From positions 1-64,000 of the forward strand of contig JALHOE010000012.1 in the NCBI GenBank assembly GCA_022843175.1: a stretch of DNA of 64,000 bases, in the 5' to 3' direction. The first letter of the stretch is position 1, and every line of letters starts with the position of its first letter. A program made the position numbers and the translations under genes. A model generated the notes under the pieces. That model did not search any database. It was not told the DNA's origin and worked only from the letters and a program-made list of their open reading frames with translations. Source of the DNA: Deltaproteobacteria bacterium. GTDB taxonomy: Bacteria > Myxococcota_A > Polyangia > Polyangiales > JADJMO01. Below are positions 1,237-58,235 of this stretch, piece by piece.

Positions 1237-2478
1237 TCAGGCGGTGGGCGACGCCGCTTGGGGGAGCACCGCCGCGAAGTCCTCGGTGAACCGGCGCTCG
1301 TAGTCGGCGAGCAGCTCGTCGATCCGCTCGGAGCGATCGGAGCGCACCGCGAGGCCGACGTGGTGGGCGTTGTCGCTCATGCGCCACGCGATCTCGGGCT
1401 CCCGGTACGCCGAGGTGTCGGGCGACTCCTGCTTGGCGAGGGTGACGATCAGCCCGCCGTAGTCCGCGCGGCGCGGGGGGAGCTTGTAGGGCTGCTCGCC
1501 CTGCGAGATCTCGATCTTCGCCCACTCGCGCCAGAGGTTGATGCCCGTCGTCGCCTCGACGAGGTCGGCGATGTGCACGCCGCCGACGCGGGCGGCCGTC
1601 TCGAGGAAGTAGATGGTGCCGTCGGCCGCGCGGATGAACTCGGTGTGCGTCACGCCGCGGACGATCCCGAGCTCCTTGATGACGCGCTTGTGCGTCTCGA
1701 GGAGCTGGCGCTCGAGCGCGCTGCCGCGCGGCACGGTGCGGGTCGCGAAGATGCCCCCGCCCTGCACGATCTGCAGCAGCGGACGGCGGTACTGGTGGCA
1801 CTCGGCGAACAGCACCTCGCGCTCGATGGTGATCGCGTCGACGTGGAAGACCTCGCCGGGCGTGAAGTGTTCGAGCAGGTAGAACGACGCGTCGTCTCCG
1901 AGCGCGTTGATCACGTCCCACACCTCTTGCGGCTGGTGGAGCTTCTTGATGCCCGAGGCCGAGGCCTCGCTGCGCGGCTTGAGCAGCCACGGCGCCGGCA
2001 CGCGCGCGAGGTACTCGTTGATCCGCGGGTGGTGGAGGATCGGCACGAACTCCGGGACCGGGATGCCGCGGTCCCTGGCGCGCGTGCGCATCGCGAGCTT
2101 GTCGCGAAAATAGCGCGCCGTCGTCTCGCCCATGCCGGGGATGCGGAGGTGCTCGCGGAGGTGGGCGACGACCTCGACGTCGTAGTCGTCGAGCGGCGCG
2201 ATGCGCTGGATGTCGTGGGTGCGCATCAGGTACGCAACGGCGTTGATCACCGCGCGGCGGTCGGTCATCGCGGTGCCGATGGGGAGCGCGAACACCTCAT
2301 CGATCGACTCCCGGACCCAGGGCTTCTGGAGCAGGCTCTCGAGCGTCAGAAGCAGAACTTTGCACCCCTCCTTCTTGCACTGATCGATGAAGTCGTTGCC
2401 CTTGAAGAAGCTGGCGACGCAGAGGATCGTGGTCGGCGCGGACGGGTCTTGCGGCGGGGCCGGCGGGATGGTGCTCAC
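1237..2478 (-). CDS. ATP-grasp domain protein (carboxylate-amine/thiol ligase-like)
   Basis: The protein is 413 aa. It has an N-terminal Rossmann-like lobe (TTILCVASFFKGNDFI) and a central ATP-grasp fold: a Lys in the APWLLKPRSEASASGIKK loop, an acidic stretch FYLLEHFTPGEVFHVD, and the metal-binding end EFIRAADGTIYFLETAARVGG, where E and N-like positions coordinate Mg-ATP. This resembles the biotin-carboxylase/carbamoyl-phosphate-synthetase-like ligases that activate a carboxylate as acyl phosphate. The substrate cannot be read. I chose GTG 2478; GTG 2496 is an alternative. No ATG exists nearby in frame. The gene is divergent from the IgGFc-type lipoprotein, with about 40 bp of shared promoter space, and has no metabolic neighbour to suggest its product. 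Confidence 0.85.
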   Translation of the reverse strand: MSTIPPAPPQDPSAPTTILCVASFFKGNDFIDQCKKEGCKVLLLTLESLLQKPWVRESIDEVFALPIGTAMTDRRAVINAVAYLMRTHDIQRIAPLDDYDVEVVAHLREHLRIPGMGETTARYFRDKLAMRTRARDRGIPVPEFVPILHHPRINEYLARVPAPWLLKPRSEASASGIKKLHQPQEVWDVINALGDDASFYLLEHFTPGEVFHVDAITIEREVLFAECHQYRRPLLQIVQGGGIFATRTVPRGSALERQLLETHKRVIKELGIVRGVTHTEFIRAADGTIYFLETAARVGGVHIADLVEATTGINLWREWAKIEISQGEQPYKLPPRRADYGGLIVTLAKQESPDTSAYREPEIAWRMSDNAHHVGLAVRSDRSERIDELLADYERRFTEDFAAVLPQAASPTA

Positions 2479-2501
2479 GACCGCCGACGGTATCACAGTG
2501 C

Positions 2502-2507
2502 TAGTCT
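2502..2507 (+). promoter_or_regulatory. -10-like hexamer TAGTCT ahead of the 2518 gene
   Basis: TAGTCT lies 10 nt before the ATG at 2518, so a transcript would begin at or next to the start codon. No Shine-Dalgarno sequence is visible. This is one member of a recurrent pattern in the window. Confidence 0.4.
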
Positions 2508-2517
2508 GCGCCCCGCG

Positions 2518-4221
2518 ATGCAGACCCTTCCCCCTTCCTTCCGCTTTGGGCTCGTGGCGGCCGCCGCCACCGCGTTCCTCTCCTTCTCCGCTTGCTCCGC
2601 GGGCAACGACAAAGAGCCGTCGGGCACGCTCGGCGGCGACGGCGGCGACCTCGACGGAGGGGGCATCAACCTCGATGGCAGCGGCATCGATCCCGACGCC
2701 GATCTCGACGGCGGCGTCCTGGTCGGAGACCCGCAGACCTGCGAGCAGGCCGCGATGGCCAAGGCCTACGTCGGCTGCGATTTCTGGCCCACGGTCGTCG
2801 CCAACAACGTGTGGTCCATCTTCGACTACGCGGTCGTGGTGGCCAACGCCGGCAGCGAGGACGCCGACGTCACGGTCACCGGCCCCGGCGGCGTGAGCAA
2901 GAGCGCGAAGGTCGCGTCCGGCAGCCTCGCGAAGATTTACCTGCCGTGGGTCACCGCCCTCAAGGGCGCCGATACCGACAGCTGCGGCGTCGCCACGCCC
3001 CTCCCCGGCTCGGTCCGCGCCAACAAGAGCGCGTATCACCTCGTCGCGTCGCGTCCGGTCACCGTCTATCAGTTCAACGCGCTCGAATACAAAGGTCAGG
3101 GCGGCGAGGCCGGCAAGAGCTGGGCAGCGTGCCCGGGCAACAAGACCTGCCCGACCAACGGCGGTCCGGTCGGCTGCTTCTCGTTCTCGAACGACGCCTC
3201 GCTGCTGTTGCCGAGCACGGCGATGACGGGGAACTACCGGGTCACCGGCATCCACGGCTGGACGGCCAACGGTCTGTTCGGCCCGCAGGACGTCCTCGGT
3301 GCGTACGTGGCGATCACCGCCACGCAGGACGGCACCACCGTGGCGTTCAAGGTCTCTTCCCGCGGCCGCGTGCTCGCGGGCGGTGGCATCGCCGCCACGT
3401 CGGCGGGCGGCACGGTGAACCTGACGATGAACGCCGGCGACGTCGTCGAGCTCGTCGGGGAGTCGAAGACCGCCTCCGATCTCAGCGGCTCGCTCGTCAC
3501 AGCCAACAAGCCGGTACAGGTCATCGCGGGCGTGCCGTGCATGCAAATGCCGCTCGGCACCCAGGCCTGCGATCACCTCGAGGAGTCGGTGTTCCCGGCC
3601 GAGACGCTCGGCAAGGACTACCTCGTCACGGTCCCGACGGGCCCCAAGGGCAACGTCGTCGGCCACGTCGTCCGGATCTATGGCAACCGCGACGGCACCA
3701 CGCTCACCTACGCGCCGACCAGGCCCGCCGGCGCGCCGACGACGATCAACGCCGGCGACGTCGTCGACGTCGGCGAGGTGCGCACCGACTTCCGCGTCAC
3801 CGGCAGCGCGGAGTTCGCCGTCGGCAGCTTCATGCTCGGTGGCGCCAAGCTCGATCCCACCACCGCCGCCCCGAACCAAAAGGGCGACCCGTCGATGAGC
3901 TTCGCGACCGCCATCGAGCAGTACCGCAAGCGCTACATCTTCCTCGCGCCGGACGACTACGACACGAGCTACGTCGACATCATCCACGAGTCCGGGACCA
4001 CGCTCACCCTCGACGGCACAACGCCGCCCGCGGGCATCGCGATCGGCGCGACCGGCTACAGCGTGTCGCGCGCGAGGCTCGGAGCGGGCAAGGCCGGCGC
4101 GCACGAGCTCACGGCGAGCAAACCGGTCGGCCTGCAGGTCATGGGATACGGCTCGTACACGAGCTACCAATACCCGGGCGGACTCAACCTCAAGTCCATC
4201 GCTCCCCCGCCGGTCAAATGA
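2518..4221 (+). CDS. IgGFc-binding-type surface lipoprotein
   Basis: The protein is 567 aa. It has a hydrophobic signal ending in a lipobox (LSFSAC, Cys near residue 28), then a Gly/Asp-rich linker (about 35-65), then one long beta-rich region. Segments such as VTVYQFNALEY, SNDASLLLPSTAM, GTTVAFKV and NKPVQVIAG recur in the bacterial IgGFc-binding-protein N-terminal family, which is common and multicopy in Myxococcota. The region is probably an extracellular adhesive or carbohydrate-binding module; IgG binding is only a name inherited from the animal family. Six or more cysteines suggest disulfides. Its TGA overlaps the ATG of the acyl-CoA dehydrogenase (ATGA), which is an odd partner. Confidence 0.82.
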   Translation: MQTLPPSFRFGLVAAAATAFLSFSACSAGNDKEPSGTLGGDGGDLDGGGINLDGSGIDPDADLDGGVLVGDPQTCEQAAMAKAYVGCDFWPTVVANNVWSIFDYAVVVANAGSEDADVTVTGPGGVSKSAKVASGSLAKIYLPWVTALKGADTDSCGVATPLPGSVRANKSAYHLVASRPVTVYQFNALEYKGQGGEAGKSWAACPGNKTCPTNGGPVGCFSFSNDASLLLPSTAMTGNYRVTGIHGWTANGLFGPQDVLGAYVAITATQDGTTVAFKVSSRGRVLAGGGIAATSAGGTVNLTMNAGDVVELVGESKTASDLSGSLVTANKPVQVIAGVPCMQMPLGTQACDHLEESVFPAETLGKDYLVTVPTGPKGNVVGHVVRIYGNRDGTTLTYAPTRPAGAPTTINAGDVVDVGEVRTDFRVTGSAEFAVGSFMLGGAKLDPTTAAPNQKGDPSMSFATAIEQYRKRYIFLAPDDYDTSYVDIIHESGTTLTLDGTTPPAGIAIGATGYSVSRARLGAGKAGAHELTASKPVGLQVMGYGSYTSYQYPGGLNLKSIAPPPVK

Positions 4222-5360
4222 TCCCGCTCCACGAGGACGACACCCACCGGGCGCTCCGCGAGCAGGCCCGCCGGTTCGCGCAGAAGTTCATCGCCCCGCA
4301 CGCGCACGGGTGGGAAGAGGCCAAGGAGTTCCCGCGCGAGCTCTATCGCGAGCTCGCCGACGCGGGCCTGATGGGCGTCGGCTACCCCGAGGCCGTCGTC
4401 GGCGGCGGCGGCGACGTGTCGCACGTGCTCGCGATCGCCGAGGAGATGATCCTCCACGGCAAGAGCGTCGGCACCGTCGTCGGGCTCGGCAGCCACGGCA
4501 TCGCCATCCCGCCGATCATCCGCGCCGGAACGCCCGAGCAGATCGATCGCTTCGTGCGGCCGGTCATCCGCGGCGAGAAGATCGCCGCGCTCGGGATCAC
4601 CGAACCGGGCGGCGGCAGCGACGTCGCCTCGTTGCGCACCAAGGCGGTCCGGGACGGCGACGTCTACGTCGTCGACGGCCAAAAGACGTTCATCACCTCC
4701 GGCGTCCGCGCCGACTTCGTCACCTGCGCGGTGCGCACCGGCGGCCCGGGCCACGGCGGCATCTCCCTGCTCGTGATCGAGCGCGGCACGCCCGGCTTCA
4801 CCGTCGGCAAAAAGCTCGAGAAGATGGGCTGGTGGGCCTCCGACACCGCGGAGCTGCACTTCGAAGCGTGCCGCGTGCCGGTCGCGAACCTCATCGGCGA
4901 CGAGGGCGCCGGCTTCCTCGCGATCATGATGAACTTCGCCACCGAGCGGCTCGCGCTCGCGGGCAACTGCGTCGCGATCGCCGAGCTCGCCTACCGCGAG
5001 TCCATCAGCTGGGCACGCGACCGGCGCGCGTTCGGCAAGTCGCTGTCGGGCTTCCAGGTCGTGCGGCACAAGCTCGCCGACATGGCGTCGAAGATCGCGG
5101 CGGCGCGCGCGCTCACCAACGAGGCGGTGATCCGCTACAACCGCGGCGAGCAAATCCCCTCGCTCGCGTCGATGGCGAAGAACGTCGCCACCGACATGTG
5201 CATGGCCGTCTGCGACGAGGCCGTGCAGATCCACGGCGGCTACGGCTACATGCGCGAATACGTGGTGGAGCGCCTGTTCCGCGACGCGCGGCTCTACCCG
5301 ATCGGCGGCGGCACGCGCGAGATCATGAACGAGATCATCGCCAAGATGGAAGGCTACTAG
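4218..5360 (+). CDS. Acyl-CoA dehydrogenase
   Basis: The protein is 380 aa, the standard family length. It should be a cytoplasmic FAD enzyme making the alpha,beta double bond of an acyl-CoA and passing electrons to ETF. Landmarks are GITEPGGGSDVAS and GQKTFITSG in the middle beta domain, RRAFGKSLSGFQVVRHKLADM, and EAVQIHGGYGYMREY near the FAD site. The position after the last motif, where MCAD has its catalytic Glu, reads IGGGTREI and lacks Glu. A Glu is present instead in the FATERLALAG segment, the place used by isovaleryl-CoA and long-chain dehydrogenases. The sequence therefore predicts the IVD/LCAD-type catalytic base and a branched or longer acyl substrate. It is translationally coupled (ATGA) to the lipoprotein gene upstream; the next gene starts 2 nt after its stop. 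Confidence 0.93.
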   Translation: MIPLHEDDTHRALREQARRFAQKFIAPHAHGWEEAKEFPRELYRELADAGLMGVGYPEAVVGGGGDVSHVLAIAEEMILHGKSVGTVVGLGSHGIAIPPIIRAGTPEQIDRFVRPVIRGEKIAALGITEPGGGSDVASLRTKAVRDGDVYVVDGQKTFITSGVRADFVTCAVRTGGPGHGGISLLVIERGTPGFTVGKKLEKMGWWASDTAELHFEACRVPVANLIGDEGAGFLAIMMNFATERLALAGNCVAIAELAYRESISWARDRRAFGKSLSGFQVVRHKLADMASKIAAARALTNEAVIRYNRGEQIPSLASMAKNVATDMCMAVCDEAVQIHGGYGYMREYVVERLFRDARLYPIGGGTREIMNEIIAKMEGY

Positions 5361-40777: not shown

Positions 40778-42433
40778 TCAGAGATACCGCTTCCACTCAG
40801 CTTCGTAGTAGTGGACGAGCACCTGGTTATCGAGCCGGTTGATCTCGACCTCGAGGCTCTCCATGTCGCGCGCGAGCACGAACAGCTGGCGGAGCGACGG
40901 GTCGTCGAGGTACTTCGGCTTGAAGGGCAGCGCCGGGAGCTTCTGCGGGATGAGCGGCGTCGGCGCCGGACCCGCGGCCCGCGCGAGGGTGAACCCCCAC
41001 TCGCCGAACGATGGCACGAACACGTGGTAGGGCGCGACCTCGAGGCCGGCCTTCTCCATGGTGCGGGCGATGCACCAGAACGAGCGACGCGCGAAGAGCG
41101 GCGACGTCGACTGGACGGAGATCACCCCGCCCTCCCCGAGGTGTTGCTTCATCAGCGCGTACATGCGCGTGGTGTAGAGCTTGCCGAGCGCGTAGTGGTT
41201 CGGATCGGGGAAGTCGGCGATGACCACGTCGTAGCGGAGCGCCTCGTTCCGCTTGTCGCCGAGCCACACGTAGGCGTCGTCGTTCACCACGTGCACGCGC
41301 GGATCGAAGAACGAGCCCTCGTTGAGGTTGCGGAGGAGCGGCATCGTCTTGGCGAGCGCGGTCATGCCCGGGTCGAGGTCGACGATGGTGATGCTCTCGA
41401 GGCCGGGCGACTTGAGCAGCTCGCGAAGGCCGAGCCCGTCGCCGCCGCCGAGGACCAGCACGTTGCGCGTCGGGAGGCCCGCCTCGGCGCGCGCGGCGAG
41501 CGCCGGCCACACCAGCGCCTCGTGGTAGCGATACTCGTCGGCGCTGGAGAACTGGAGGTTGCCGTTGAGGAACAGCTGGAAGCTCGAGCGACCGCGGGTG
41601 ACGACGATGCGCTGATACGTCGTCTGCTTGGCGTAGACGATCTCGTCGGCGTAGAGGCCCTCCTCGGCGAGCAAGGTGATCCGCTCGGCGCCGACCGTCC
41701 CGGCGATGAGGATGGCCAGGACCAGCCCGGCGCGCGCGAGGAGGCCCGTTTTGTGCGGCTTCACGTCCTCTGCGAGGAGGAAGGTGCTGCCGATCGCGGT
41801 GAGCGCGTTGATGCCGCCGATCACCAGCGAGGTGCGCACCAACCCCAGCTTGGGCACGAAGAAGATCGGGAACGCCAGCGAGCCGACGAGCGCGCCGAGG
41901 TAGTCGACCGTGAGCACCCGCGCGATGAGGTCCTTGAACGCGTAGCGCTCGCGGAGGATGCGCAGGAGCAGCGGGATCTCCATGCCCACCAGGATGCCGA
42001 TGACCAGCACGATCGCGTACAGCACCACCCGAAACCACGACAGGTGCGCGAACGCCATGAAGAGCACGGGCGCGGACAAGCCGCCGACGAGCGCGACCGC
42101 GATCTCGATCTCGACGAACGTGCGGGCGACGCCGCCCTCGACGCGGCCCGAGAGCCACGCGCCGATGCCCATCGCCGAGAGGTACACGCCGATGACGGTC
42201 GAGTACTGCATCACCGCGTCGCCGAGGACGAAGCTCGCGAGCGTGGAGGCGAGCAGCTCGTAGACCAGGCCGCACGTCGCGATGATGAGGACGGTGACGA
42301 GGAGCAGCGTCGCGGTCGCCTTCTCGGGGACGCGCTCGGGGGCCGCGGGCGCGGCTTGAGGTCCCCACACGCGCCGCTTGGGCGGGTCGAGGAGGGACAC
42401 CTCTTTGGGCTCGTCGCTCACGACGAGGGTCAT
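40778..42433 (-). CDS. speE: Membrane-anchored polyamine aminopropyltransferase-like protein (SpeE fused to membrane domain)
   Basis: The protein is 551 aa. Residues 40-255 hold seven or so transmembrane helices (for example LLLVTVLIIATCGLVYELL, VVLYAIVLVIGILVGMEIP). Residues 280-500 form a spermidine-synthase fold: SSADEYRYHEALVWPAL, the dcSAM-binding VLVLGGGDGLGLREL, ITIVDLDPGM, and the catalytic-Asp block VVIADFPDPNHY. All main residues for aminopropyl transfer appear present, but the binding segment differs from soluble SpeE, so the acceptor may not be putrescine. It is the last gene of an operon with SpeD, which makes the decarboxylated SAM donor. An envelope-located acceptor is likely. 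Confidence 0.85.
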   Translation of the reverse strand: MTLVVSDEPKEVSLLDPPKRRVWGPQAAPAAPERVPEKATATLLLVTVLIIATCGLVYELLASTLASFVLGDAVMQYSTVIGVYLSAMGIGAWLSGRVEGGVARTFVEIEIAVALVGGLSAPVLFMAFAHLSWFRVVLYAIVLVIGILVGMEIPLLLRILRERYAFKDLIARVLTVDYLGALVGSLAFPIFFVPKLGLVRTSLVIGGINALTAIGSTFLLAEDVKPHKTGLLARAGLVLAILIAGTVGAERITLLAEEGLYADEIVYAKQTTYQRIVVTRGRSSFQLFLNGNLQFSSADEYRYHEALVWPALAARAEAGLPTRNVLVLGGGDGLGLRELLKSPGLESITIVDLDPGMTALAKTMPLLRNLNEGSFFDPRVHVVNDDAYVWLGDKRNEALRYDVVIADFPDPNHYALGKLYTTRMYALMKQHLGEGGVISVQSTSPLFARRSFWCIARTMEKAGLEVAPYHVFVPSFGEWGFTLARAAGPAPTPLIPQKLPALPFKPKYLDDPSLRQLFVLARDMESLEVEINRLDNQVLVHYYEAEWKRYL

Positions 42434-42471
42434 AGTCGAGCCGGGGCGCGGCCGTCAGTAGCGCCGCGTGG

Positions 42472-42654
42472 TCAGCGTCGGCGGGAGGGCGGGACCTTCT
42501 CGTTGCCGCTGGCGGTGTAGCTCGAGACGCCGCCGCCGCAGCCGCCGCTGCCGCCCACGGCGCCATCCGCGGCGGAGCCGACGGCCGGTTTCTTCAGCGG
42601 AACCGTCTTCTCCGGATCCGTCGGTTCCTCTGCCATGGGCTTTTCGTCGGCCAT
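42472..42654 (-). CDS. Small Gly/Cys-containing protein in the SpeD-DUF4178 operon
   Basis: The protein is 60 aa, charged at the start (MADEKPMAEEPTDPEK), then has a Gly-rich core GGSGGCGGGVSSY and a basic end. It is predicted disordered. It fits exactly between DUF350 and the SpeE-like gene with spacings of 46 and 38 bp and the same strand. I do not recognise it. It could be a substrate or linker of the system; this is a guess based on position and composition. Confidence 0.5.
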   Translation of the reverse strand: MADEKPMAEEPTDPEKTVPLKKPAVGSAADGAVGGSGGCGGGVSSYTASGNEKVPPSRRR

Positions 42655-42700
42655 GCTCTCGGAGAGTGCATCGCCGATGCCATGTGCGCGAAGCGACCGC

Positions 42701-42922
42701 TCAGCGGATGGCGTTGGAGAGGATCAGCGCGAGGCCGATGATGATCGACCCGAGCACGATGCCGAGCGAGGTGTTCTGGTCCTCTTCGATCTCCTTGCGA
42801 AGGGAGAACGGCAGCACCTTGCTGACGATCCACATCGCCAGGGCGAACATGAGCATGCCGATGCCCGAGAAGATCAGGCTGCCGAGGATGGCGTTGAGGA
42901 TCGCGTCGAGCTTGGCACCCAT
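42701..42922 (-). CDS. DUF350 membrane protein (single unit)
   Basis: The protein is 73 aa, two transmembrane helices (LGSLIFSGIGMLMFALAMWI and GIVLGSIIIGLALILSNAI) joined by a short polar loop with EIEEDQNTSLG; the loop Glu-Glu-Asp-x-N is typical of DUF350. Members usually have one or more two-helix units and often neighbour SpeD/SpeE-like and DUF4178 genes. The role is unknown; a membrane partner or channel-like oligomer has been considered for the family. GGAGGG 3-8 nt upstream of ATG 42922 gives a Shine-Dalgarno. Confidence 0.8.
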   Translation of the reverse strand: MGAKLDAILNAILGSLIFSGIGMLMFALAMWIVSKVLPFSLRKEIEEDQNTSLGIVLGSIIIGLALILSNAIR

Positions 42923-42965
42923 GGGGAGCCCTCCCTTTCAGTTGCGCTCCGACTCCGCGGAGCGA

Positions 42966-43148
42966 CTACTTCCCGGCCTGGTAGCCGGCGTGCCAGAAGA
43001 AGAAACTGCGATAACCACCGGGTGACTGCCGGACCGAGGGCGGCAGCTTGTAGCTCTTGCCGCCGGGGTCCCAGCCCATCTGCGACGTCGCCGTCCAGAA
43101 CAGGAGGGAGCCTCCCCCAATCACGGCGTAAATGACTTTGCCAACCAT
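42966..43148 (-). CDS. Small membrane protein between DUF350 and DUF4178 genes
   Basis: The protein is 60 aa with one hydrophobic helix (VIYAVIGGGSLLFWTAT) and an aromatic-rich soluble end (GGYRSFFFWHAGYQAGK). It begins 13 bp after the DUF4178 gene and ends 43 bp before DUF350, on the same strand. AGAGGAATCC upstream gives an AGAGGA Shine-Dalgarno. Family unknown; position supports a role in the same membrane complex. Confidence 0.6.
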   Translation of the reverse strand: MVGKVIYAVIGGGSLLFWTATSQMGWDPGGKSYKLPPSVRQSPGGYRSFFFWHAGYQAGK

Positions 43149-43161
43149 GTTCGGATTCCTC

Positions 43162-45213
43162 TCAGTCGCTGCTCGATCGAACCGTTGAATCTGCCCATCG
43201 CTTGGACTCGAACGCGCCCATCCGCACGAGCGCGATGATCGGCGTGATGAGGAACAGGAGCAGCGACAGGATGCCCGGCCAGATGATGGCCATGTCGTTC
43301 TTCAGCTTGATCTTGAAGCTCGTGGGGCACGTGGTGCCGGGCGCGCTGCACATTGTGGGGCTGTCGGTGACCGGCTGGAGGCGGAGCACGTAGGTGCCGG
43401 GCGACAGACCGCCGACGCTCGTCGTCTGCCGCGGCGAGCCCTCGCTCCACGACTCGCCGTCGGTGACGCCGGCGTAGTAGCTGGCCTCGGCCTCCATCTC
43501 GAAGACCTCTTGGGTCTTCTCGTTGATGAGCGCCATGCCGACCCAGAGGTAGCTGTTCTGCAGCTGGTTCGCGACGATCTCGGCCTGCACGTTGCTGCCG
43601 ACCGGGATCTTGAACTTCTCGCTGAAGAACGCCGGCTCGGGCTTCTCTTTCTTGCCGCTCGGCTCGTCGGCGTCCTCGACCGGATCCTCGGCGGGGAGCG
43701 GGAGGTCGATCGTCTCCTCGTAGACCGTCTTCTCCTTGGCGGAGCCGGCCGCCATGATGAAGCAGACGATCCACAGGGCGAAGAAGCCGAGCGACATGAG
43801 GCCGATCGTCTTCGCGCTCTGCTTGGCGGCGTTGGGCTGGTTCGGCGCGACGCCGTAGGGCGACGGCGGCGCCGACTTCTGGCCGAACGCCTCGTAGAGC
43901 TTCTTCGGGTCGACGTAGTGGGCGACCGTCCAGTTGATCTCCTCGCGGTCGCCGTACTCGTCGTGCTCGTGCTCGCGGCCGAGCGAGAGGCCCTTCTGCG
44001 GGTGGATGTACTCGCGGGCCTCGGACTCCTCGCCGATCTCGACCGACCAGTAGAACTCGCCGAGCACCCGGGTGACGGTGGCCTCGACCTGCGAGAACTT
44101 CTTGAACTGCATGCCGCGCCAGGTGGCGACGTCGTCGAACACCTGACCGACCTGCACCGAGCCCGCCTCGATGGGCACGACGATCGACCAGTGGCCGTTC
44201 TGCTCGGTGAGGAAGCGGAAGCCGCGCGTCGTCTCGTAGAGCAGGTACTCGTCCCAGTAGTACCAGCTGCCGTCGACGTTGCAGGCCTTGGTCATGTAGC
44301 CAATGACCGTCCACACCGGGGCGTGACCGGTCTCGACCGCCTCGCCGATCAGCGCGTGGATCTGGCCCTGCGCGCCGATCGGGATCTTGGGGATGGTCTG
44401 CTGCTGCTCGAGGACCTCGAGCCACTTGAGCGGACCGCTCGACGCGTCGAGCATCGAGTTGCAGTAGGGGCACGCGATGCGCTTGGTGGCGCCGGGCGCC
44501 TTGCACTCGAGGTTGCCGCCGCAGTTGGGGCACTTGAGCGCGGTGCCCTCGGGACCGGCCGAGGCGCCGCCCGCCATCGCCGCCAACCGCTTGGCGTTGG
44601 GGTCGAACGGGAGCCCGAGCTCCTGGAAGGGAACTATATAACCAACGTATGCTTCCTCGGGGGCGTAACCGGAGCCCTGCCCGTAGTCGAGCGTGCCGAA
44701 GGTGCCGTTGGGGCCGCTGATGTCGATGTAGCCGAAGTACTCGCCGGGCGTGCCGACGACCGGGAGCTCGCCCTCGAAGGTGACGAACTGGCCCGAGCCC
44801 TTCTCGGCGACCGTGAACGGCTGGTTGTTGACGACGATTTGGTGGCCGAGGACCGCGTGGTCGTACGGGATCGCCGGCGGCTGCACCGCGAAGGTGAAGT
44901 AGTAGCGGCCCTGCGCCTCGGCGAGCCAACCCCAGCGACCGTCGCTGAAGGAGCAATACCACTCGTCCCAGGGCCCCTGCCCGTGGTCGAGCTGCTGGCG
45001 ACCGACGATGCGGTAGCCCATGCCGCGGAAGGTGCCGCTCAGGCCGACGTACAGGGGCGAGTCGGTGGCCGCGAGCTCGGCGACCTTACCGACGAGGCGG
45101 ATGTCGCGGTCGCTGCGGACCACACAGAACTTGCAGTTCGCGCAGACGACGGCGACCGAGGAGCCGGCCTTGAACTCGACCGGCGCTCCGCAGCTCGGGC
45201 AACCGACGGTCAC
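43162..45213 (-). CDS. Large zinc-ribbon/DUF4178 membrane protein
   Basis: The protein is 683 aa from GTG 45213. The N-terminal zinc ribbon (C5, C8, C24, C27; CPSCG and CANC) is followed by a first DUF4178 unit (about 60-190, with the WDEWYCSFSDGRWGWLAEAQG core). A second zinc ribbon (CPNCGG and CPYCN, near 230-255) precedes a second DUF4178 unit (about 275-410, with GSWYYWDEYLLYE). Two transmembrane helices enclose a further beta-rich domain: TIGLMSLGFFALWIVCFIMA and IIWPGILSLLLFLITPIIALV. DUF4178 is linked by genome context to SpeD, SpeE-like and DUF350 genes; its chemistry is not known. The GTGA overlap couples it to SpeD. Confidence 0.82.
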   Translation of the reverse strand: MTVGCPSCGAPVEFKAGSSVAVVCANCKFCVVRSDRDIRLVGKVAELAATDSPLYVGLSGTFRGMGYRIVGRQQLDHGQGPWDEWYCSFSDGRWGWLAEAQGRYYFTFAVQPPAIPYDHAVLGHQIVVNNQPFTVAEKGSGQFVTFEGELPVVGTPGEYFGYIDISGPNGTFGTLDYGQGSGYAPEEAYVGYIVPFQELGLPFDPNAKRLAAMAGGASAGPEGTALKCPNCGGNLECKAPGATKRIACPYCNSMLDASSGPLKWLEVLEQQQTIPKIPIGAQGQIHALIGEAVETGHAPVWTVIGYMTKACNVDGSWYYWDEYLLYETTRGFRFLTEQNGHWSIVVPIEAGSVQVGQVFDDVATWRGMQFKKFSQVEATVTRVLGEFYWSVEIGEESEAREYIHPQKGLSLGREHEHDEYGDREEINWTVAHYVDPKKLYEAFGQKSAPPSPYGVAPNQPNAAKQSAKTIGLMSLGFFALWIVCFIMAAGSAKEKTVYEETIDLPLPAEDPVEDADEPSGKKEKPEPAFFSEKFKIPVGSNVQAEIVANQLQNSYLWVGMALINEKTQEVFEMEAEASYYAGVTDGESWSEGSPRQTTSVGGLSPGTYVLRLQPVTDSPTMCSAPGTTCPTSFKIKLKNDMAIIWPGILSLLLFLITPIIALVRMGAFESKRWADSTVRSSSD

Positions 45214-45632
45214 GAGCGCCCCTCCGCTTCGAGGTCGGTGCGATCGGTGGGCGGCGCGTCGTCGTCGGTGGGGGCCAGCGCGTGCACGCCGCGCTCGAGC
45301 TCGCGCACGTGGACCCTGGTGGCCGACAGGAGCTGCCCGAGCCGCTCCTCCCACGGCCAGGCCGGACGGGGGCGGCAGCAGTACAAGTTGAAGGTGGCGA
45401 GCCCGAGCTCGGGGAAGGTGTGCACCGTGACGTGCGACTCCGAGAGCATGACCATCCCGGTGATCCCGGCCTCGCCGGGGAACACGTGCCACTGGGGGCT
45501 GCCGAGCGGCGATAGGCGCATTTCGGAGATGAGCAGCGCGACCACGCCCTGCACTCGCGCCAGATCGCGGAGGGCCTCGGGCGACGCCCCGGTGGCGTCG
45601 ACGATCCATTCCCGGCCCGCGTCCGTCAGCAC
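45210..45632 (-). CDS. speD: S-adenosylmethionine decarboxylase proenzyme (SpeD, class 1B)
   Basis: The protein is 140 aa. The pyruvoyl enzyme decarboxylates SAM to give the aminopropyl donor. The self-cleavage site is LSESHVTVHTFPE: Ser66 would become the pyruvoyl group, with His71 and Cys86 at +5 and +20, the same spacing as Ser63/His68/Cys83 of the Thermotoga enzyme. The C-terminal tail (ALAPTDDDAPPTDRTDLE) is longer and more acidic than usual. GTG 45632 has TATATC (45641-45646) 8 nt upstream. It is the first gene of the DUF4178 operon, overlapping that gene by GTGA. Confidence 0.93.
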   Translation of the reverse strand: MLTDAGREWIVDATGASPEALRDLARVQGVVALLISEMRLSPLGSPQWHVFPGEAGITGMVMLSESHVTVHTFPELGLATFNLYCCRPRPAWPWEERLGQLLSATRVHVRELERGVHALAPTDDDAPPTDRTDLEAEGRS

Positions 45633-45677: not shown

Positions 45678-46382
45678 CTAACCCGAGGCGAACTCCTCGA
45701 CCAGGGTCGCCTCGGACAGGTCGCCGAGGAACACCTCGCGCTCGCCGTTGCAGCTGCGGATCAGCGTGGGGGTCATCGCCACGCCGTCCACCCGCGCGCG
45801 CCCCGCGTCGTGAAGGATGTCGATGACCTCGAGGTTGCGGTCGTGGAGGACGCGTCGGACGGTGCGCTCGGCCCGGTCGGAAGCCACGCTTCCGGGCGTA
45901 ACGTAGAGCGCGAAACTCTGACGCTTCGGCCGGAGCGACAGCCGCACGCTCGGGGGCGCGGCCGGCGGGCGCGGGAGGAGGGTCGGACGGACAAACTGAG
46001 CGATGGTCGACAGGAGCGCGTCGATGTCGAACGGCTTGCGGATGATCGCGTCGACCCGCGCCTTGAGGGTCTCGAGCCGGTGCTCCGCGGTGAGCACGAC
46101 GATTGGCACGTTCTCCGTCCGCACGTTCGAGCGCACCCGGGCGCAGAGCTGGTGGCCGTCGACGTTCGGCATCTGCAGGTCGGTGATGATCAGCGCCGGG
46201 ACCTCCCGCGCGATCTGCTGGAGCGCCTCGGCGCCGTCGGCCGCGACGACGACCTGATAGCCCTCGACCTCGAGCACCTCCCGGAGCGCGAGGCGGATCG
46301 GCTCGTCGTCCTCCGCGACGAGGATCGTCGCCTCCGACGCGTCGTCAGCGACGAGGCGCAGGTGCGGAAAGGCGGACGACAC
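45678..46382 (-). CDS. Response regulator fused to a KaiB-like domain
   Basis: The protein is 234 aa. Residues 18-132 are a complete receiver: ILVAEDDEPIR, phospho-acceptor Asp68 in IITDLQMPNVDG, Thr98 and Lys116 (IIRKPFD). After a Pro-rich linker, residues 155-231 read SFALYVTPGSVASDRAERTV, then LEVIDILHDAG, MTPTLIR and FLGDLSEATLVEEF. These match the KaiB/SasA-N pattern: KLYVAG-NTP, VIDV, ATPTL, GDLS. KaiB domains are thioredoxin-like and can switch fold. No DNA-binding or enzyme domain is present, so output would be by protein contact. It is on the strand of, and 45 bp upstream from, speD. Confidence 0.78.
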   Translation of the reverse strand: MSSAFPHLRLVADDASEATILVAEDDEPIRLALREVLEVEGYQVVVAADGAEALQQIAREVPALIITDLQMPNVDGHQLCARVRSNVRTENVPIVVLTAEHRLETLKARVDAIIRKPFDIDALLSTIAQFVRPTLLPRPPAAPPSVRLSLRPKRQSFALYVTPGSVASDRAERTVRRVLHDRNLEVIDILHDAGRARVDGVAMTPTLIRSCNGEREVFLGDLSEATLVEEFASG

Positions 46383-46452: not shown

Positions 46453-47982
46453 TCAGCCCCCGGCCCGCATGCACGCCTCGAGGTCTACCCCGTTGCGGAC
46501 CCGCACATCCTGCTCGGAGCCGCTTCCGGTGACCTCGACGCAAGAGCCGAACGCGTCCACCGGCAGCTCCATCCGCGCCCCTCCCAGCGCAACGTCGCGG
46601 ACCACGTCGCCGGCCTTGTCGCCGATTTCGCCGCGGATGAGGCGGACCATCACCTCGGGATCGATCGGGGGCTCGTTGTTGCGGGCGCGCGTGAGGAGCA
46701 GACGCATGAAGTCGTCGAGGCTCCGCTGCCCCTTCGTCTGCTTGCGCATCGTCGAGTCCACGTACGCGGCGACGAGCGAGCCGCGCAGATACGGGAGCTG
46801 CACGGCGGTGCCGCCCCAGCGCATGTCGGCCTTGTCGTTCGGCGTCTCGGCGTCAGGGTGGCGGTGATAGCGGCGCAAGCGATCGCGGACCGCCTCGAGC
46901 CAGTCGCGCGCGCGCCACACGCCCGCGCGCCGCATCAGCTCGTCGGTGTAGTGCTCGGTGAACCCCTCGGAGAACCAGTAGGTCTCGGCGTCGGTGCCGG
47001 CGCCGGCCGTGCGCTCGATGATCTGACCGTTGTAGAGGTGGAACATCTCGTGCGCGGCGAGGCGCGCGTCGTCCGCTGTCCACGCGGCGCCCTTGGCGCG
47101 CCAGACGACGGCCGACGCGCTGAGCGAGGTGCCGTGCGAGCCGCCCCCGGGCGGCATGCCGACGACGAGCAGGCGGAGCGTCTCCGGTCGCTCGTCGCCG
47201 AAGACCTTGCCCTCGGCCTCGAGCAGGCGGAAGAGATCGCGCGACGCGGCCGCGAGATCGAACGACGCCGAGTCGGGCAGGCGCGCTTCGAGCGTGAGGT
47301 TGCCGGCCGTGTGCTTGATGGTCGCGAACTTGCCGGCCACGAAATACGCGTGGCGAAGCGCGCGGGTGGTCGTCTCGTGCGCGCCCGGCCCGAGCGAATA
47401 GGTTCCCTCGGCGCCCGGCATCGCGGCGAGATCGAAGTCGACCTGCACTCGCGCCCGGGTCTCGTCGGGCACGTCGGGCAGGATGAGGGTGGTCTCGGCG
47501 ATCGCCATCACCAGCTCCTTGCTGGCGATGACGTCGAACTCGTAGCCCCACTCGAGCCCGGGTCTCGGCGGGCGCACCACATACCGGGCGACGGCGTTCT
47601 TGCATCGGATCGGCGTGGCCCAGCCGGTGTGGGTGTCGAGATCGTCGGAGGTGACGTCGGCGTCGGTGCCGTCGCACTCGATCCGCGGGGCGGTGAGGTG
47701 ATCGAGGACCTCCTCGTCACCGGCCCACTTCTTCTGCACGACCCAGCGACGCGGCAGATCGTCGGAGCTGGCGCGGACCTCGATCTCGATGCGCGGATCG
47801 TTACCGACCGAGGGTCGGACCATCACGTTGAGATCGACCCGACGCGGCGCCGTGGTGATGTAACGGTGCTCGGCGCCCGCGACGCCGGCGGCGGGACGCG
47901 GCGGCGGCTGTCGGCCGCAGGCCAACGTGACCAGCGCTCCAAACACGACGGTTCCGAACAGGCGGGAGGGCACGGACTTCAT
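46453..47982 (-). CDS. M61/M1-like gluzincin metallopeptidase lipoprotein
   Basis: The protein is 509 aa. The signal has lipobox LVTLAC. An N-terminal beta-rich domain (to about 200) resembles that of glycyl aminopeptidases of the M61 family. The zinc site is AHEMFHLYNG near residue 309 (HExxH) with the third ligand Glu in WFSEGFTEHYTDEL about 35 residues later. A PDZ-like C-terminal part is not obvious. The catalytic residues are intact, so it is likely an active extracytoplasmic peptidase. The gene stands alone on the minus strand, 70-76 bp from its neighbours. Confidence 0.82.
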   Translation of the reverse strand: MKSVPSRLFGTVVFGALVTLACGRQPPPRPAAGVAGAEHRYITTAPRRVDLNVMVRPSVGNDPRIEIEVRASSDDLPRRWVVQKKWAGDEEVLDHLTAPRIECDGTDADVTSDDLDTHTGWATPIRCKNAVARYVVRPPRPGLEWGYEFDVIASKELVMAIAETTLILPDVPDETRARVQVDFDLAAMPGAEGTYSLGPGAHETTTRALRHAYFVAGKFATIKHTAGNLTLEARLPDSASFDLAAASRDLFRLLEAEGKVFGDERPETLRLLVVGMPPGGGSHGTSLSASAVVWRAKGAAWTADDARLAAHEMFHLYNGQIIERTAGAGTDAETYWFSEGFTEHYTDELMRRAGVWRARDWLEAVRDRLRRYHRHPDAETPNDKADMRWGGTAVQLPYLRGSLVAAYVDSTMRKQTKGQRSLDDFMRLLLTRARNNEPPIDPEVMVRLIRGEIGDKAGDVVRDVALGGARMELPVDAFGSCVEVTGSGSEQDVRVRNGVDLEACMRAGG

Positions 47983-48058
47983 TAACGATGTCGCACGCAC
48001 GGGCATCGGTGCCACCGCTCGCGGCGAGAATGTCCGGCACGGATGCGCGCGAGCAGCG

Positions 48059-48817
48059 TCACCGCTTCGGAGCGGCCTTGCCGTCGACGTGCACCTGCGC
48101 CTTGTCATCGATCTTCTTTCCGACTTTTTCGAGCGCACCTGCAAGGAACTGGCCCGTGAGGTCACGCGGTTTGACGTCGTGCTCCGACAGGCTCGCGATG
48201 ACGGGCTGCGTCGTCTTGAAGGCGATCTCGGTCGGCGCGTCGGGCGGGCCCTTGAAGGAGACGTCCACCTCGACCGACTTCTTGGCGGACCGCCCGTGAA
48301 CGCGGAGGGTGCCCTTGGCCGAGAAGTGAACGGTGCGGACGCCGGACTCTTCCTTGGCTGCCGCGAGCGAGGCGGCGCTCGTCCGCTCGATGCTCTCGAT
48401 GGTGAAGCGCGCCATCCGATAGTCGTCGCGCTTCACCTTCTCGACCTTCTCGCCGAGCTCGAACCAGTTGCGGGCGTGCTCGGTCTGGCTCTCGTTCTTG
48501 TCGCCGTCGGCGAACGTGTGGGTCGTGAAGGCGTCGAGATCGGCCACCACCTCGCCGGTCGACGCCGCGAGGTTTCCGAGGTCGACGTCGAACACCCCGG
48601 AGAGCTTCTCGGTCTTGCCCTGAAACTTCTCGAGCGGCGCGTCGATCGTGACCGACAGCGCGCCGGCCGAGTCGATCACGAAGCGGCGCTTGCCCTGCTC
48701 GACGCCCTTGGAGCTCGCGGCGATCGGCGCCGGGGTCTCCTTGATCGGCGAGATCTCCGGATCCTTCTTGCAGGCCGGCAGAACGAGGAGCGCGAGGAGG
48801 AGGGTGCGTGCGGTCAT
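48059..48817 (-). CDS. YceI-like lipoprotein in the bufferin-type operon
   Basis: The protein is 252 aa. Lipobox LLVLPAC (Cys16) is followed by a short linker. The sequence then follows the YceI lipocalin-like course: RFVIDSAGALSVTI, LSGVFDVDLGNL, ARNWFELGEKVEKVKRDDYRMARFTIESI, and VHFSAKGTLRVHGRSAKKSVEVDVSF. YceI proteins bind isoprenoids or other hydrophobic ligands in the periplasm. Its ATG overlaps the DUF2063 stop (ATGA), placing it in one operon with the MNIO pair; it takes the place where bufferin operons often have a DoxX-type membrane protein. Confidence 0.72.
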   Translation of the reverse strand: MTARTLLLALLVLPACKKDPEISPIKETPAPIAASSKGVEQGKRRFVIDSAGALSVTIDAPLEKFQGKTEKLSGVFDVDLGNLAASTGEVVADLDAFTTHTFADGDKNESQTEHARNWFELGEKVEKVKRDDYRMARFTIESIERTSAASLAAAKEESGVRTVHFSAKGTLRVHGRSAKKSVEVDVSFKGPPDAPTEIAFKTTQPVIASLSEHDVKPRDLTGQFLAGALEKVGKKIDDKAQVHVDGKAAPKR

Positions 48818-49620
48818 CTCGTGTCCCCTACGACGAAACCTTCGACAGGTTTCGCTCCCAACCAAACGCCGCGGTCGGCGAGGTCCGACACCAACTCGGC
48901 GAACGAGCCCACCAGCGCCCCGTCGATCTCGAAGCGCTCGCGGGCGGCCGCGGCGCGGACCGCCTCGACCACCGTCGCGTCGCCGCGCGCGACCTCCTCG
49001 AGGATCGCCGCCGCGACCGGCGAGAGCTCGAGCACCCGCACCTCGTGGGAGGCGGGATCGCGGTACAGGCAGAGCGCGAACGGGCCCTCCTCGACCACGG
49101 CGTCGCGGTCGAGGTCGTCGGGCAGGCGGTGCACCGCGTAGCGCGCGCGGAGGATCTTGTGCGCCGGCGTGAGCACCGCCGGGCGGTTGAAGTCGAGCTC
49201 GCCGATCTCGCGGACGTCGTCGGCGCCGGACTCCTGACCCGCGTACTCGACCTCCAGCATCGCCTGCTCGTGACGCGCGAGCTCGAGGACCCACGGCGGC
49301 GCGGTGGCCGGCAGCACGTCGGGGCGGAGGAAGCGGAGGAGCTCGGCCGCGACGTCGCGGAGGTAGGGGGAGCGCGGCGGCGATTCGTCGAACCATCGCT
49401 CCACGATCGGCTCGAGATCCCCGAGCACCGCCGCGAGGCGGGGGAAGCATCCCTCCACCACGTCGGTGAGGCGGTGGCGCGCCATGCGTCGGTAGACGCG
49501 GAAGCGCCGCTCGGCCCGCGCGTCCGTGGAGCCCTCGCAGAGCACCGCGAGCTGCTTCTCGAAGTCCTTCTTGAAGAGGAGCTCGAGGAACGCTCGCTGG
49601 TATTCGGCGAGGTCGGTCAT
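48814..49620 (-). CDS. DUF2063 protein, partner of the MNIO enzyme (BufC/HvfC type)
   Basis: The protein is 268 aa. The N-terminal DUF2063 helical domain is recognised from YQRAFLELLF, RFRVYRRMARHRLTDVVEGCFPRLAAVLGD and PPRSPYLRDVAAELLRFL. The C-terminal half (GELDFNRPAVLTPAHKILRARYAVHRL, FALCLYRDPASHEVRVLELSP) resembles a winged-helix/RRE-like unit used to hold precursor peptides. In characterised DUF692 systems this protein forms a complex with the enzyme and the leader peptide. It overlaps both neighbours by ATGA, a sign of fixed stoichiometry. Confidence 0.83.
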   Translation of the reverse strand: MTDLAEYQRAFLELLFKKDFEKQLAVLCEGSTDARAERRFRVYRRMARHRLTDVVEGCFPRLAAVLGDLEPIVERWFDESPPRSPYLRDVAAELLRFLRPDVLPATAPPWVLELARHEQAMLEVEYAGQESGADDVREIGELDFNRPAVLTPAHKILRARYAVHRLPDDLDRDAVVEEGPFALCLYRDPASHEVRVLELSPVAAAILEEVARGDATVVEAVRAAAARERFEIDGALVGSFAELVSDLADRGVWLGAKPVEGFVVGDTR

Positions 49621-50480
49621 CGCTCCCTCTCCGGGCGCTTCTCGGGCGCGCTCCGCCAGATCCGGTCGAGGCGCTCGACCTCGGCGTACAGCTCGTCGAG
49701 GGCGGGGAAGTCGTCGTCGCGCTCGAGGAGCACCGGCACCCTGCCCGTGCGCTCGAGCGTCCACGCGAGGAGCTCGTAGACGTCGTCGCAGAGCGGCTCG
49801 GCGTGGGTGTCGATGATGAAGTCGGGCTCTTCGTAGTAGTGGCCCGCGACGTGGATCTGCACGACGCGGTCGAGCGGCATCTTCGCCAGCACGACACGCG
49901 GGTCGTGGCCATGATTCCGAGCATTTACGTAGACATTATTCACGTCCAGCATCAGCTTGCAGCCGGACTGACTCACGACGGCGTCGACGAACTCGCCATC
50001 GTCGAGCGTCGAGCCGCGGGGCTTCAAGTAATAGCTGATGTTCTCCACCGCGAGCTCGCATGGCAGCTGGTCTTGCGCCTTCCGAATGCGCGCGGCGAAG
50101 TGCGCGGCCGTCTCCTCGTTCCACGGCATCGGCAACAGGTCGTGCGACGCGGCGCCGTGCGCGGTCGAGAAGCAGAGGTGGTCGGAGTGCCACGGGGTCT
50201 CGAGCTCGCGGAGGAAGCGATCGAGGGTGCGGAGGTAGTTCGCGTCGAGCGGGTCGACCCCACCGAGCGACATCGCGAGCCCGTGGGTGGCGATGGGCCA
50301 GCGCTCGCGGCACTTGCGGAGGTTGTCCGGCCAGCGGCCGCCGCGGCGCATGTAGTTCTCGGGGTGGACCTCGAGCCAGCGAATCGCCGGCACCGCGCCC
50401 GCCGCGTGCCGCTCGAGCAGCTCGTCGACGAGCGGATACCGGAGGCCGAGGCCGACGCCCGCGATGTGGGGAGGGCTCAT
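49617..50480 (-). CDS. DUF692 multinuclear iron oxidative enzyme (MNIO; BufB/HvfB-type)
   Basis: The protein is 287 aa, a TIM-barrel family that modifies Cys residues of ribosomally made peptides with O2 and two or three irons. Metal-binding candidates are seen in order: WLEVHPENYM, PIATHGLAMSLGG, PWHSDHLCF, LAVENISYYLKPRG, LMLDVNNVYVNARNHG, VVQIHVAGHYYEE and DTHAEPLCDDVYEL. The set of His, Glu, Asp and Asn residues is complete compared with what I know of MbnB and HvfB. Known products of relatives are oxazolone/thioamides or 5-thiooxazoles that bind copper. The precursor gene lies 168 bp upstream. Confidence 0.92.
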   Translation of the reverse strand: MSPPHIAGVGLGLRYPLVDELLERHAAGAVPAIRWLEVHPENYMRRGGRWPDNLRKCRERWPIATHGLAMSLGGVDPLDANYLRTLDRFLRELETPWHSDHLCFSTAHGAASHDLLPMPWNEETAAHFAARIRKAQDQLPCELAVENISYYLKPRGSTLDDGEFVDAVVSQSGCKLMLDVNNVYVNARNHGHDPRVVLAKMPLDRVVQIHVAGHYYEEPDFIIDTHAEPLCDDVYELLAWTLERTGRVPVLLERDDDFPALDELYAEVERLDRIWRSAPEKRPERER

Positions 50481-50523
50481 GTTGCCGCTCCGCCCGCTGC
50501 GGCGCGGCCGTCGACCAGCGGCC

Positions 50524-50639
50524 GGCGACCGGCGACCGGCGACCGGGCGAGAGGAGAGGGAGAAGGGGGTGCCATGGTGGACAGCGATGAGGGCGCCGCC
50601 GCGTGTGCGGGGCGCCCTCTTGGACGGTCGACGGTCGAC
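50524..50639. repeat. Heptamer repeats and a strong hairpin between precursor and MNIO genes
   Basis: GGCGACC is repeated three times at 50524-50544 and GGTCGAC twice at 50626-50639. Between them, 50591-50602 and 50607-50617 form an 11-bp stem with one bulge (GGGCGCC pairs with GGCGCCC; CCGC with GCGG). The hairpin could stop or slow transcription or protect the precursor mRNA, giving more precursor than enzyme. Confidence 0.5.
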
Positions 50640-50648
50640 CGCTTCAGA

Positions 50649-51197
50649 TCACTTCTTCTTCTTCGCGGCGCACGAGCCGGCGCCGCAGCCCGCCTCGGAC
50701 GCGCCGCCCTTGGCCGCGGGGGCTGCGGGCTTGCTGTCCTTCTTGGCGTCGGCCTTGGCGTCCTTGACGTCCTTCTTCGCGTCCTTCGCGTCGGCCTTGG
50801 CCTCTTTGACCTCCGCCTTCGCTTCCTTGACCTCGGCCTTGGCTTCCTTGACCTCGGCCTTCGCGTCCTTCGCGTCGGCCTTGGCGTCCTTCACGTCGGC
50901 CTTGGCGTCCTTGGTCGCGCCGCAGGAGCCGTCCTTCTTCGCGCCGCAGGAGCCCTCCTTCTTGACGGCGTCCTCCTTCTTGCCGGAACAGGAGCCGTCC
51001 TTCTTCGCGCCGCAGGAGCCGTCCTTCTTCGCGCCGCACGAGTGCTCGCCGGCGCCGCCGGCGGCCTTGGGCTCGGTCGCGGACACGGGCGTCTTCGGGT
51101 CGGTGTTGCTGCCGCCACACGCGGCGACGCTCACACCGAACGCGGCCGCGGCCGCGGCAAGGATCGCGCTCTTGGTCATGCTGCTCTTCTTGGTCAT
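50649..51197 (-). CDS. Bufferin-like RiPP precursor lipoprotein with Cys octapeptides and Ala/Lys/Asp heptads
   Basis: The protein is 182 aa. A signal sequence (SAILAAAAAAFGVSVAAC) has a lipobox with Cys27. Residues 51-96 hold octapeptides of the form [DE]-G-S-C-G-A-K-K, with Cys at 54, 62, 70, 84 and 92; these recall the EGKCG units of bufferin precursors. Residues 97-152 are eight heptads such as DAKADVK and EAKAEVK, predicting one long charged helix. The tail has two more Cys (171, 176) and ends in KKKK. ATG 51197 has GGAG about 9 nt upstream; ATG 51179 is second best. The lipid anchor and heptad arm are unlike the bufferins I know. It is 168 bp upstream of the DUF692 gene. Confidence 0.75.
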   Translation of the reverse strand: MTKKSSMTKSAILAAAAAAFGVSVAACGGSNTDPKTPVSATEPKAAGGAGEHSCGAKKDGSCGAKKDGSCSGKKEDAVKKEGSCGAKKDGSCGATKDAKADVKDAKADAKDAKAEVKEAKAEVKEAKAEVKEAKADAKDAKKDVKDAKADAKKDSKPAAPAAKGGASEAGCGAGSCAAKKKK

Positions 51198-57540: not shown

Positions 57541-57810
57541 TCAAGGGGCCGGGTCGCCCTCGCCCTTCGCGTCGACCACGCCCTCGCAGCCGCGGAGGTT
57601 TCCGACGACCTGCGCCACCTGCCGCGGCGTCGTCCACACGACGCCCTCGAGGTCGCCGTCCTCGTGATGTTGCCAATCCGCGGCTTTTGCCTCGCCGACG
57701 ACCATCACCATGTAGCCGCCGATTTTTCGGGTAGCCGGGGATCCGGCGAAGGAGGTGCCGAGTCGGAGCTGAACACGGACGACCGCTCGTCGATCGGTCG
57801 GGACGTTCAT
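57541..57810 (-). CDS. Small hypothetical protein
   Basis: The protein is 89 aa from ATG 57810, where TACTCT (57819-57824) lies 8 nt upstream on the coding strand. It is beta-rich (AVVRVQLRLGTSF, KIGGYMVMVVGEAK), with one late Cys (LRGCEGV). No known family. The promoter-like element and low Arg content compared with shadow frames support a real gene. It is divergent from the receiver gene at 57873 by 62 bp and ends just upstream of the operator at 57503-57533. Confidence 0.5.
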   Translation of the reverse strand: MNVPTDRRAVVRVQLRLGTSFAGSPATRKIGGYMVMVVGEAKAADWQHHEDGDLEGVVWTTPRQVAQVVGNLRGCEGVVDAKGEGDPAP

Positions 57811-57872
57811 TGGCAGCCAGAGTAGGTCCAAAGCGCAACCGACGCGACCCGTGGGCGTCACAAGCGAGCACG

Positions 57873-58235
57873 ATGGAGCCGGCCACCGCCTCGGTGCTCA
57901 TTGTCGAGGACGATCCGCAGATCGCTTCGGCGATCCACGGCGCGCTCGAGGACGAGGGCATCGAGTCCGAGATCGCGGGCACGGTCGCCGAGGCCCATCG
58001 CCTGTTCGAGGCGCGGCGCCCGACCCTGATCCTCCTCGACTGGAACCTCCCCGACGGCTCGGGAGAGGACGTGGTGCGCGCGGTGCGTCCGCGCGACGCG
58101 TCGGTCCCGATCGTCGTCATGTCGGCGGCGCGCGACGCGATCGTCGCGAGCTACGGCGTCGATGCGCGCGAGCGCCTGTCCAAGCCGTTCGATCTCGATC
58201 GCCTGGTGACGCTCGTGCGCCGGTACTGCGGCTGA
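57873..58235 (+). CDS. Single-domain response regulator
   Basis: The protein is 120 aa. It is a complete CheY-like receiver: acidic pair in LIVEDDPQIA, phospho-acceptor in ILLDWNLPDGSG, Ser/Ala switch region VVMSAARD, and Lys in RLSKPFDLDRL. No output domain, so it acts through protein contacts with an unknown partner. No kinase is adjacent. It lies 17 bp before the cyclophilin gene, which seems to have its own -10-like element. Confidence 0.9.
   Translation: MEPATASVLIVEDDPQIASAIHGALEDEGIESEIAGTVAEAHRLFEARRPTLILLDWNLPDGSGEDVVRAVRPRDASVPIVVMSAARDAIVASYGVDARERLSKPFDLDRLVTLVRRYCG

Follow-up and report, generated by a model that had tools for sequence, protein, structure and literature searches.

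A receiver-KaiB fusion protein of a Polyangiales bacterium, a candidate response regulator with a putative KaiC-docking output domain

What would a response regulator do with a KaiB-like domain as its output? The question is raised by an open reading frame on the minus strand at 45678-46382 of a 64,000-nucleotide stretch of a Polyangiales genome (the window). To our knowledge, little is known about signal input and output of KaiA-less KaiBC systems outside cyanobacteria. A first-pass annotation of the window had described the frame, which does exist, as a complete receiver followed by a KaiB-like domain, and had proposed that phosphorylation might control a fold switch or a KaiC-like partner elsewhere. 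Based on sequence comparison, structure models and analogy, we give about an even chance to the reading that receiver-KaiB fusions (REC-KaiB) are phospho-controlled response regulators whose output is a KaiC-docking domain, the window protein being a diverged second copy. The features of the locus are given in Table 1.

Table 1. Features of the REC-KaiB locus in the window.
Feature	Position	Strand	Evidence and remarks
REC-KaiB response regulator, 234 aa	45678..46382	minus	GTG start, uncertain (the open frame has 255 codons); ortholog on L037/L038 64% identical
Receiver domain, residues 20-127	46002..46325	minus	PF00072 (Response_reg), 83.9 bits
Pro/Arg-rich linker, about residues 128-155	45918..46001	minus	Alignment; partly pLDDT <50 in the full model
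KaiB-like domain, residues 159-229	45696..45908	minus	PF07689, hhalign, AF2 of the domain alone, Foldseek
Upstream neighbour, M61-peptidase-like	46453..48165	minus	PF05299; gene order kept in the ortholog's genome (L038)
Downstream neighbour, S-adenosylmethionine decarboxylase (speD-like)	45210..45632	minus	PF02675; ortholog in L038

The receiver carries every residue needed for phosphorylation, as first annotated. The Pfam match and the alignment place the acidic pair at D25 and D26 (preceded by E24), the phospho-acceptor at D68, the Thr/Ser position at T98 and the lysine at K116. E24, D25, D26, D68 and K116 are invariant in the alignment of all eight REC-KaiBs described below, and the remaining members, judged by eye, have a Thr or Ser nearby at the T98 position. 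The speD-like gene lies 45 bp downstream and is possibly co-transcribed with the REC-KaiB gene; a promoter scan found no match. Directly downstream of REC-KaiB, a row of speD-like (PF02675), DUF4178, DUF350 and spermine-synthase-like genes occupies 40778-45632 (minus strand), and the first three of these are also kept in the congeneric genome G403, which encodes the ortholog.

The C-terminal domain is a divergent but genuine member of the KaiB family, judging from its sequence. The KaiB model PF07689 matches the window protein with 24.1 bits when the whole protein is searched (Pfam cut-off 27) and with 27.0 bits (E 3.6e-6), equal to the cut-off, when the C-terminal 90 aa are used alone, and the corresponding domain of the ortholog exceeds the cut-off with 28.5 bits. 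This borderline Pfam result is strengthened by profile comparison: a profile of the window protein and its ortholog aligns with nine KaiBs at 98.6% in hhalign (E 1e-15), and in an hmmsearch of PDB sequences its ten highest-ranking matches are all KaiB (best 7.5e-5). When the complete genome (9.75 Mb) is searched in six frames with PF07689, the window copy ranks third at 4.8e-5. A true KaiB leads with 1.4e-22, a second REC-KaiB follows with 1.5e-7, and the fourth match drops to 0.021. The LYVTPGS, TPTL and GDLS motifs that mark the family are retained. The NCBIfam KaiB models match the protein weakly and far below their own cut-offs, so the domain is not a standard KaiB. It forms the C-terminal third of a receiver protein, whereas a clock KaiB is free-standing and about 100 aa long. 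A chance match to KaiB was rejected on the six-frame, hhalign and PDB results. Membership in another thioredoxin-like family, which would have contradicted the initial assignment, was also rejected, as Pfam and NCBIfam return only KaiB for the C-terminal part, and a redox thioredoxin was rejected because the domain has no CXXC motif and a single cysteine (C211) that is absent from the ortholog.

The fusion is conserved. We searched closely within one class of 317 genomes and by sample in the phylum (377 genomes). Eight REC-KaiB proteins were found in seven of the 317 genomes: the window copy, a second copy on contig C104 of the same genome, the ortholog in G403, and one each in G370, G446, G381, G382 and G383. 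Pfam recognises both domains in all eight, with the KaiB part of the window copy below cut-off. A profile of the KaiB-like domain, applied at 1e-5, matches 43 of the 317 genomes; the eight REC-KaiBs score 98-140 bits and the next match 64 bits, a gap that is partly built in, as the profile was made from the same eight proteins. Because open frames are unreliable in these GC-rich genomes, the frames of 44 loci (L025-L068) were checked with our own REC and KaiB profiles; in this subset of the KaiB matches, chosen in part mostly for a long frame, a receiver stands ahead of a KaiB domain only in the eight known proteins. The G403 ortholog appears on both L037 and L038 (record JACPFM010000027.1) and was counted once. 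A scan of genome contigs yielded a single locus, apparently contig C31 of G403 once more, as its length (19045) and gene agree. Other arrangements were also seen at these loci. A KaiB-PAS-kinase-receiver hybrid at 1281-3431 (minus strand) of L034 has its receiver behind the KaiB domain. At 4223-4849 (minus strand) of L033, a KaiB domain follows a 120-aa N-terminal part without Pfam match, which is perhaps a degenerate receiver. Searching plasmid sequences by tblastn with the C104 REC-KaiB as query gave matches in 802 records. In none of them is 80% of the query covered at one site, and the matches listed are response regulators and similar proteins.

Clock KaiB is encoded with kaiC, and the same holds for six of the eight REC-KaiB genes, which adjoin kaiC. 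In G383 (L039) and G381 (L040), the genes run in the order kinase, kaiB, kaiC and recKaiB with short overlaps, kaiC and recKaiB being among the overlapping pairs. G382 (L041) has the same order, with kaiB at 1335-1565 and a kinase frame truncated where the contig stops. The recKaiB gene lies upstream of kaiC in G370 (L027), overlapping it by a few bases, and likewise upstream and overlapping in G446 (L042); the domain profiles detect no KaiB in G370 and G446 besides REC-KaiB. In the KaiC of L027, both the loop region and an ST pair are present. The window copy and its G403 ortholog are the two members not beside kaiC, and both lie between M61-peptidase-like and speD-like genes. Two more genomes from the family, G292 and G402, also contain the M61 homologue; in the stretches read, it is not followed by a REC-KaiB.

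The Kai system of the window's own genome lies on another contig. No KaiC match was found on the window contig (C12), in agreement with the first annotation, and six-frame profile searches located the true KaiB, a KaiC and the second REC-KaiB on C104. There (L025), genes for a REC-PAS-histidine kinase, KaiB and KaiC follow one another on one strand, and the REC-KaiB gene is convergent, overlapping kaiC by 12 bp. This KaiC aligns end to end with the clock KaiC 8zn5 (9e-200), including the HIST phosphosite and the stretch that we take to be the B-loop region from its location in cyanobacterial KaiC. The suggestion of a KaiC-like partner elsewhere is thus borne out as far as the genome holds a kaiBC operon, although the neighbourhood link belongs to the relatives and not to the window copy. 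A second KaiC-like gene, with its first half spread over two frames, lies at 5297-9152 of L026 (G000:C52), followed by a histidine-kinase-like ORF; by eye, its product has no ST pair.

Only the fold-switched, thioredoxin-like form of KaiB is reported to bind the CI domain of KaiC, at a site common to SasA (PMC6378743). The Xaa-Pro bonds described as isomerising in KaiB are 62-63, 69-70 and 71-72 (PMC8059507); KaiB residue numbers here follow the consulted sections of the cited papers and the PDB alignments. Eleven further KaiBs from the phylum were tabulated, and each of them keeps P63, P70 and P72. Among the eight REC-KaiBs, the P63 equivalent is kept in every member, P70 in six (lost in the window copy and G403) and P72 in five (lost in these two and in the C104 copy). 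In place of G89, all eight carry a bulkier hydrophobic side chain (V, L, M or F). The window copy has F for G89 and S for D91, so that among the tested switching residues only the P63 equivalent is left. The K58 position is occupied by Arg in five kaiC-linked members and by Gly in G370, which is also kaiC-linked, as well as in the window copy and G403. The AF2 model of the KaiB-like domain alone, made from a two-sequence alignment, takes the thioredoxin-like form (pLDDT 73.8), and Foldseek ranks KaiB 4kun first and the fold-switched KaiB 5jyt second for it, with 5jwo and 8fwj listed among many thioredoxins. The full-length model, also from two sequences and of low confidence (60.5), shows the thioredoxin-like form too, and response regulators are among the Foldseek matches listed for it. 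Since AF2 may be reproducing KaiB structures from its training set (PMC12288660), the thioredoxin-like prediction is weak when taken alone.

Sequence and models together suggest that the KaiB-like domains of REC-KaiBs stay in the form that binds KaiC. The first-pass idea that phosphorylation of the receiver flips the domain between the ground-state and fold-switched KaiB folds draws on the complete receiver and on the reported ability of KaiB to switch folds (PMC6378743, PMC8059507). It nevertheless seems very improbable, because prolines 70 and 72 are missing from both the window copy and the ortholog, G89 is enlarged throughout the family, and both models, with the caveat on AF2 memory (PMC12288660), are already thioredoxin-like. 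If the domain is indeed fixed in this form, control would come from the receiver and not from a fold switch.

For the favoured reading, a phospho-controlled regulator docking on KaiC, we propose the following scheme. A histidine kinase would phosphorylate the receiver of REC-KaiB; for the kaiC-linked members, this kinase is probably the one in the same operon. Phosphorylation would alter the packing of the receiver on the KaiB-like domain, or dimerisation with it, while the domain itself would stay throughout in the thioredoxin-like form, that of fold-switched KaiB and of SasA. The altered state of the receiver would then set how well the domain occupies the KaiB/SasA site on the CI ring, and REC-KaiB on KaiC would either compete with free KaiB or read out the state of KaiC. 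As a diverged second copy away from kaiC, the window protein would most likely act on the kaiBC system in trans, and it may have moved to another partner. A broader generalisation is possible and is put forward tentatively: REC-KaiBs may form a class of clock-docking regulators, in which the operon kinase sets the competition of a KaiB mimic on the KaiC ring, providing two-component input or readout in KaiA-less heterotrophs, with REC-KaiB replacing KaiB in two species.

To investigate the relationships of the window copy, the two domains were placed in separate trees. In the KaiB-domain tree, a branch with support 86/92 (not starred) divides all eight REC-KaiBs from 13 other KaiB domains. The receiver tree, which took in six other receivers out of 150 listed, groups the six kaiC-linked receivers (87/96). 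In path length, the window pair is closer to ordinary receivers than to those of the other REC-KaiBs, and with support of 19/15 the tree speaks neither for nor against a grouping of all eight. From its placement, the window copy may stem from a separate fusion event or have had its receiver exchanged. Between the window and G403, the dN/dS of REC-KaiB is 0.54, exceeding six of the seven neighbours compared, namely M61 (0.33), speD (0.21), DUF2063 (0.37), MNIO (0.28), the kinase (0.36) and DUF350 (0.04), which range from 0.04 to 0.37. The seventh, the DUF4178 frame, has 0.64 and contains an out-of-frame stretch. These ratios suggest looser constraint on the window REC-KaiB. They would also suit a decaying or dispensable paralogue without specific role, as would the divergent KaiB score, but such a fate seems quite unlikely: the open frame and the receiver residues are intact in both species, the ratio stays below 1, and the position is conserved.

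It is possible, if somewhat doubtful, that the window copy no longer belongs to the KaiC system. It would then be a paralogue whose thioredoxin-like domain binds another partner, such as a kinase or one of the proteins encoded around speD and M61, in a phospho-controlled contact. Its position away from kaiC, found only in the genus, points this way, as do the loss of K58 and of prolines 70 and 72. The Kai complement of G403 points the same way: no KaiB was detected there, the single domain match being REC-KaiB itself, and the one KaiC with two domains in this genome can be aligned with clock KaiC past the B-loop region only and has no ST pair. The G403 genome is, however, only 91% complete, an intact kaiBC operon and a paralogue next to kaiC are present in the genome of the window itself, and the family motifs are kept in the window domain.

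Several known systems share parts of this architecture. With KaiB (PF07689; 5jyt, 5jwo, 4kun), the window domain shares homology over its full length and a predicted fold resembling the KaiC-bound form; unlike KaiB, it is fused to a receiver, is not kaiC-linked, and lacks two of the three switching prolines, G89, D91 and the C-terminal GLDL segment. SasA, which is reported to compete with fold-switched KaiB for KaiC CI (PMC6378743), likewise joins a thioredoxin-like KaiB-like domain to a two-component protein. In SasA the partner module is a kinase (HisKA/HATPase); in REC-KaiB it is a receiver and the domain order is reversed, and Pfam and NCBIfam find no kinase domain in the window protein. 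By this analogy, REC-KaiB is best read as SasA turned round, with the regulator and not the kinase carrying the KaiB-like domain. KaiA3 is described as combining a phosphorylatable receiver with a KaiA-like domain, and it is encoded with kaiB3/kaiC3 in several genomes (PMC11372060). It is thus also a receiver with a Kai output domain, but the output of REC-KaiB is KaiB-like; a C-terminal KaiA domain is absent from the Pfam and NCBIfam matches of the window protein. The kaiC contexts reported for heterotrophs include genes for histidine kinases or for stand-alone receivers (PMC3164672); the consulted sections of that paper link KaiC to two-component genes in the same way and contain no receiver-KaiB fusion. 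Myxobacteria are described as having many kaiC, few kaiB and no kaiA (PMC11832031). In the literature searched (subscription papers lay outside its scope), including the consulted sections of PMC5520375, PMC3164672, PMC8113500, PMC11372060 and PMC11832031, the REC-KaiB fusion was not found. The parts are known, and relative to this literature the fusion is new, its nearest published counterparts being KaiA3 and the kaiC contexts with kinases or stand-alone receivers.

If the favoured reading holds, REC-KaiB would offer a KaiB-like domain that nature has apparently arrested in the fold for KaiC binding, which would inform which residues make KaiB switch. Together with KaiC and the histidine kinase, it makes up a system of just three or four purifiable proteins for testing phosphorelay control of KaiC. 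Through proteins of this type, ordinary signals may gain access to a KaiC timer.

Two further observations concern the window itself. A second, single-domain response regulator is encoded at 57810-58235 (plus strand). At 48814-51170 (minus strand), genes for an MbnB/TglH/ChrH-type enzyme (PF05114) and a DUF2063/NGO1945_C protein lie near an ORF with repeated SCGAKKDG-like motifs; the region looks like a RiPP precursor plus modifying pair, presumably bufferin-like.
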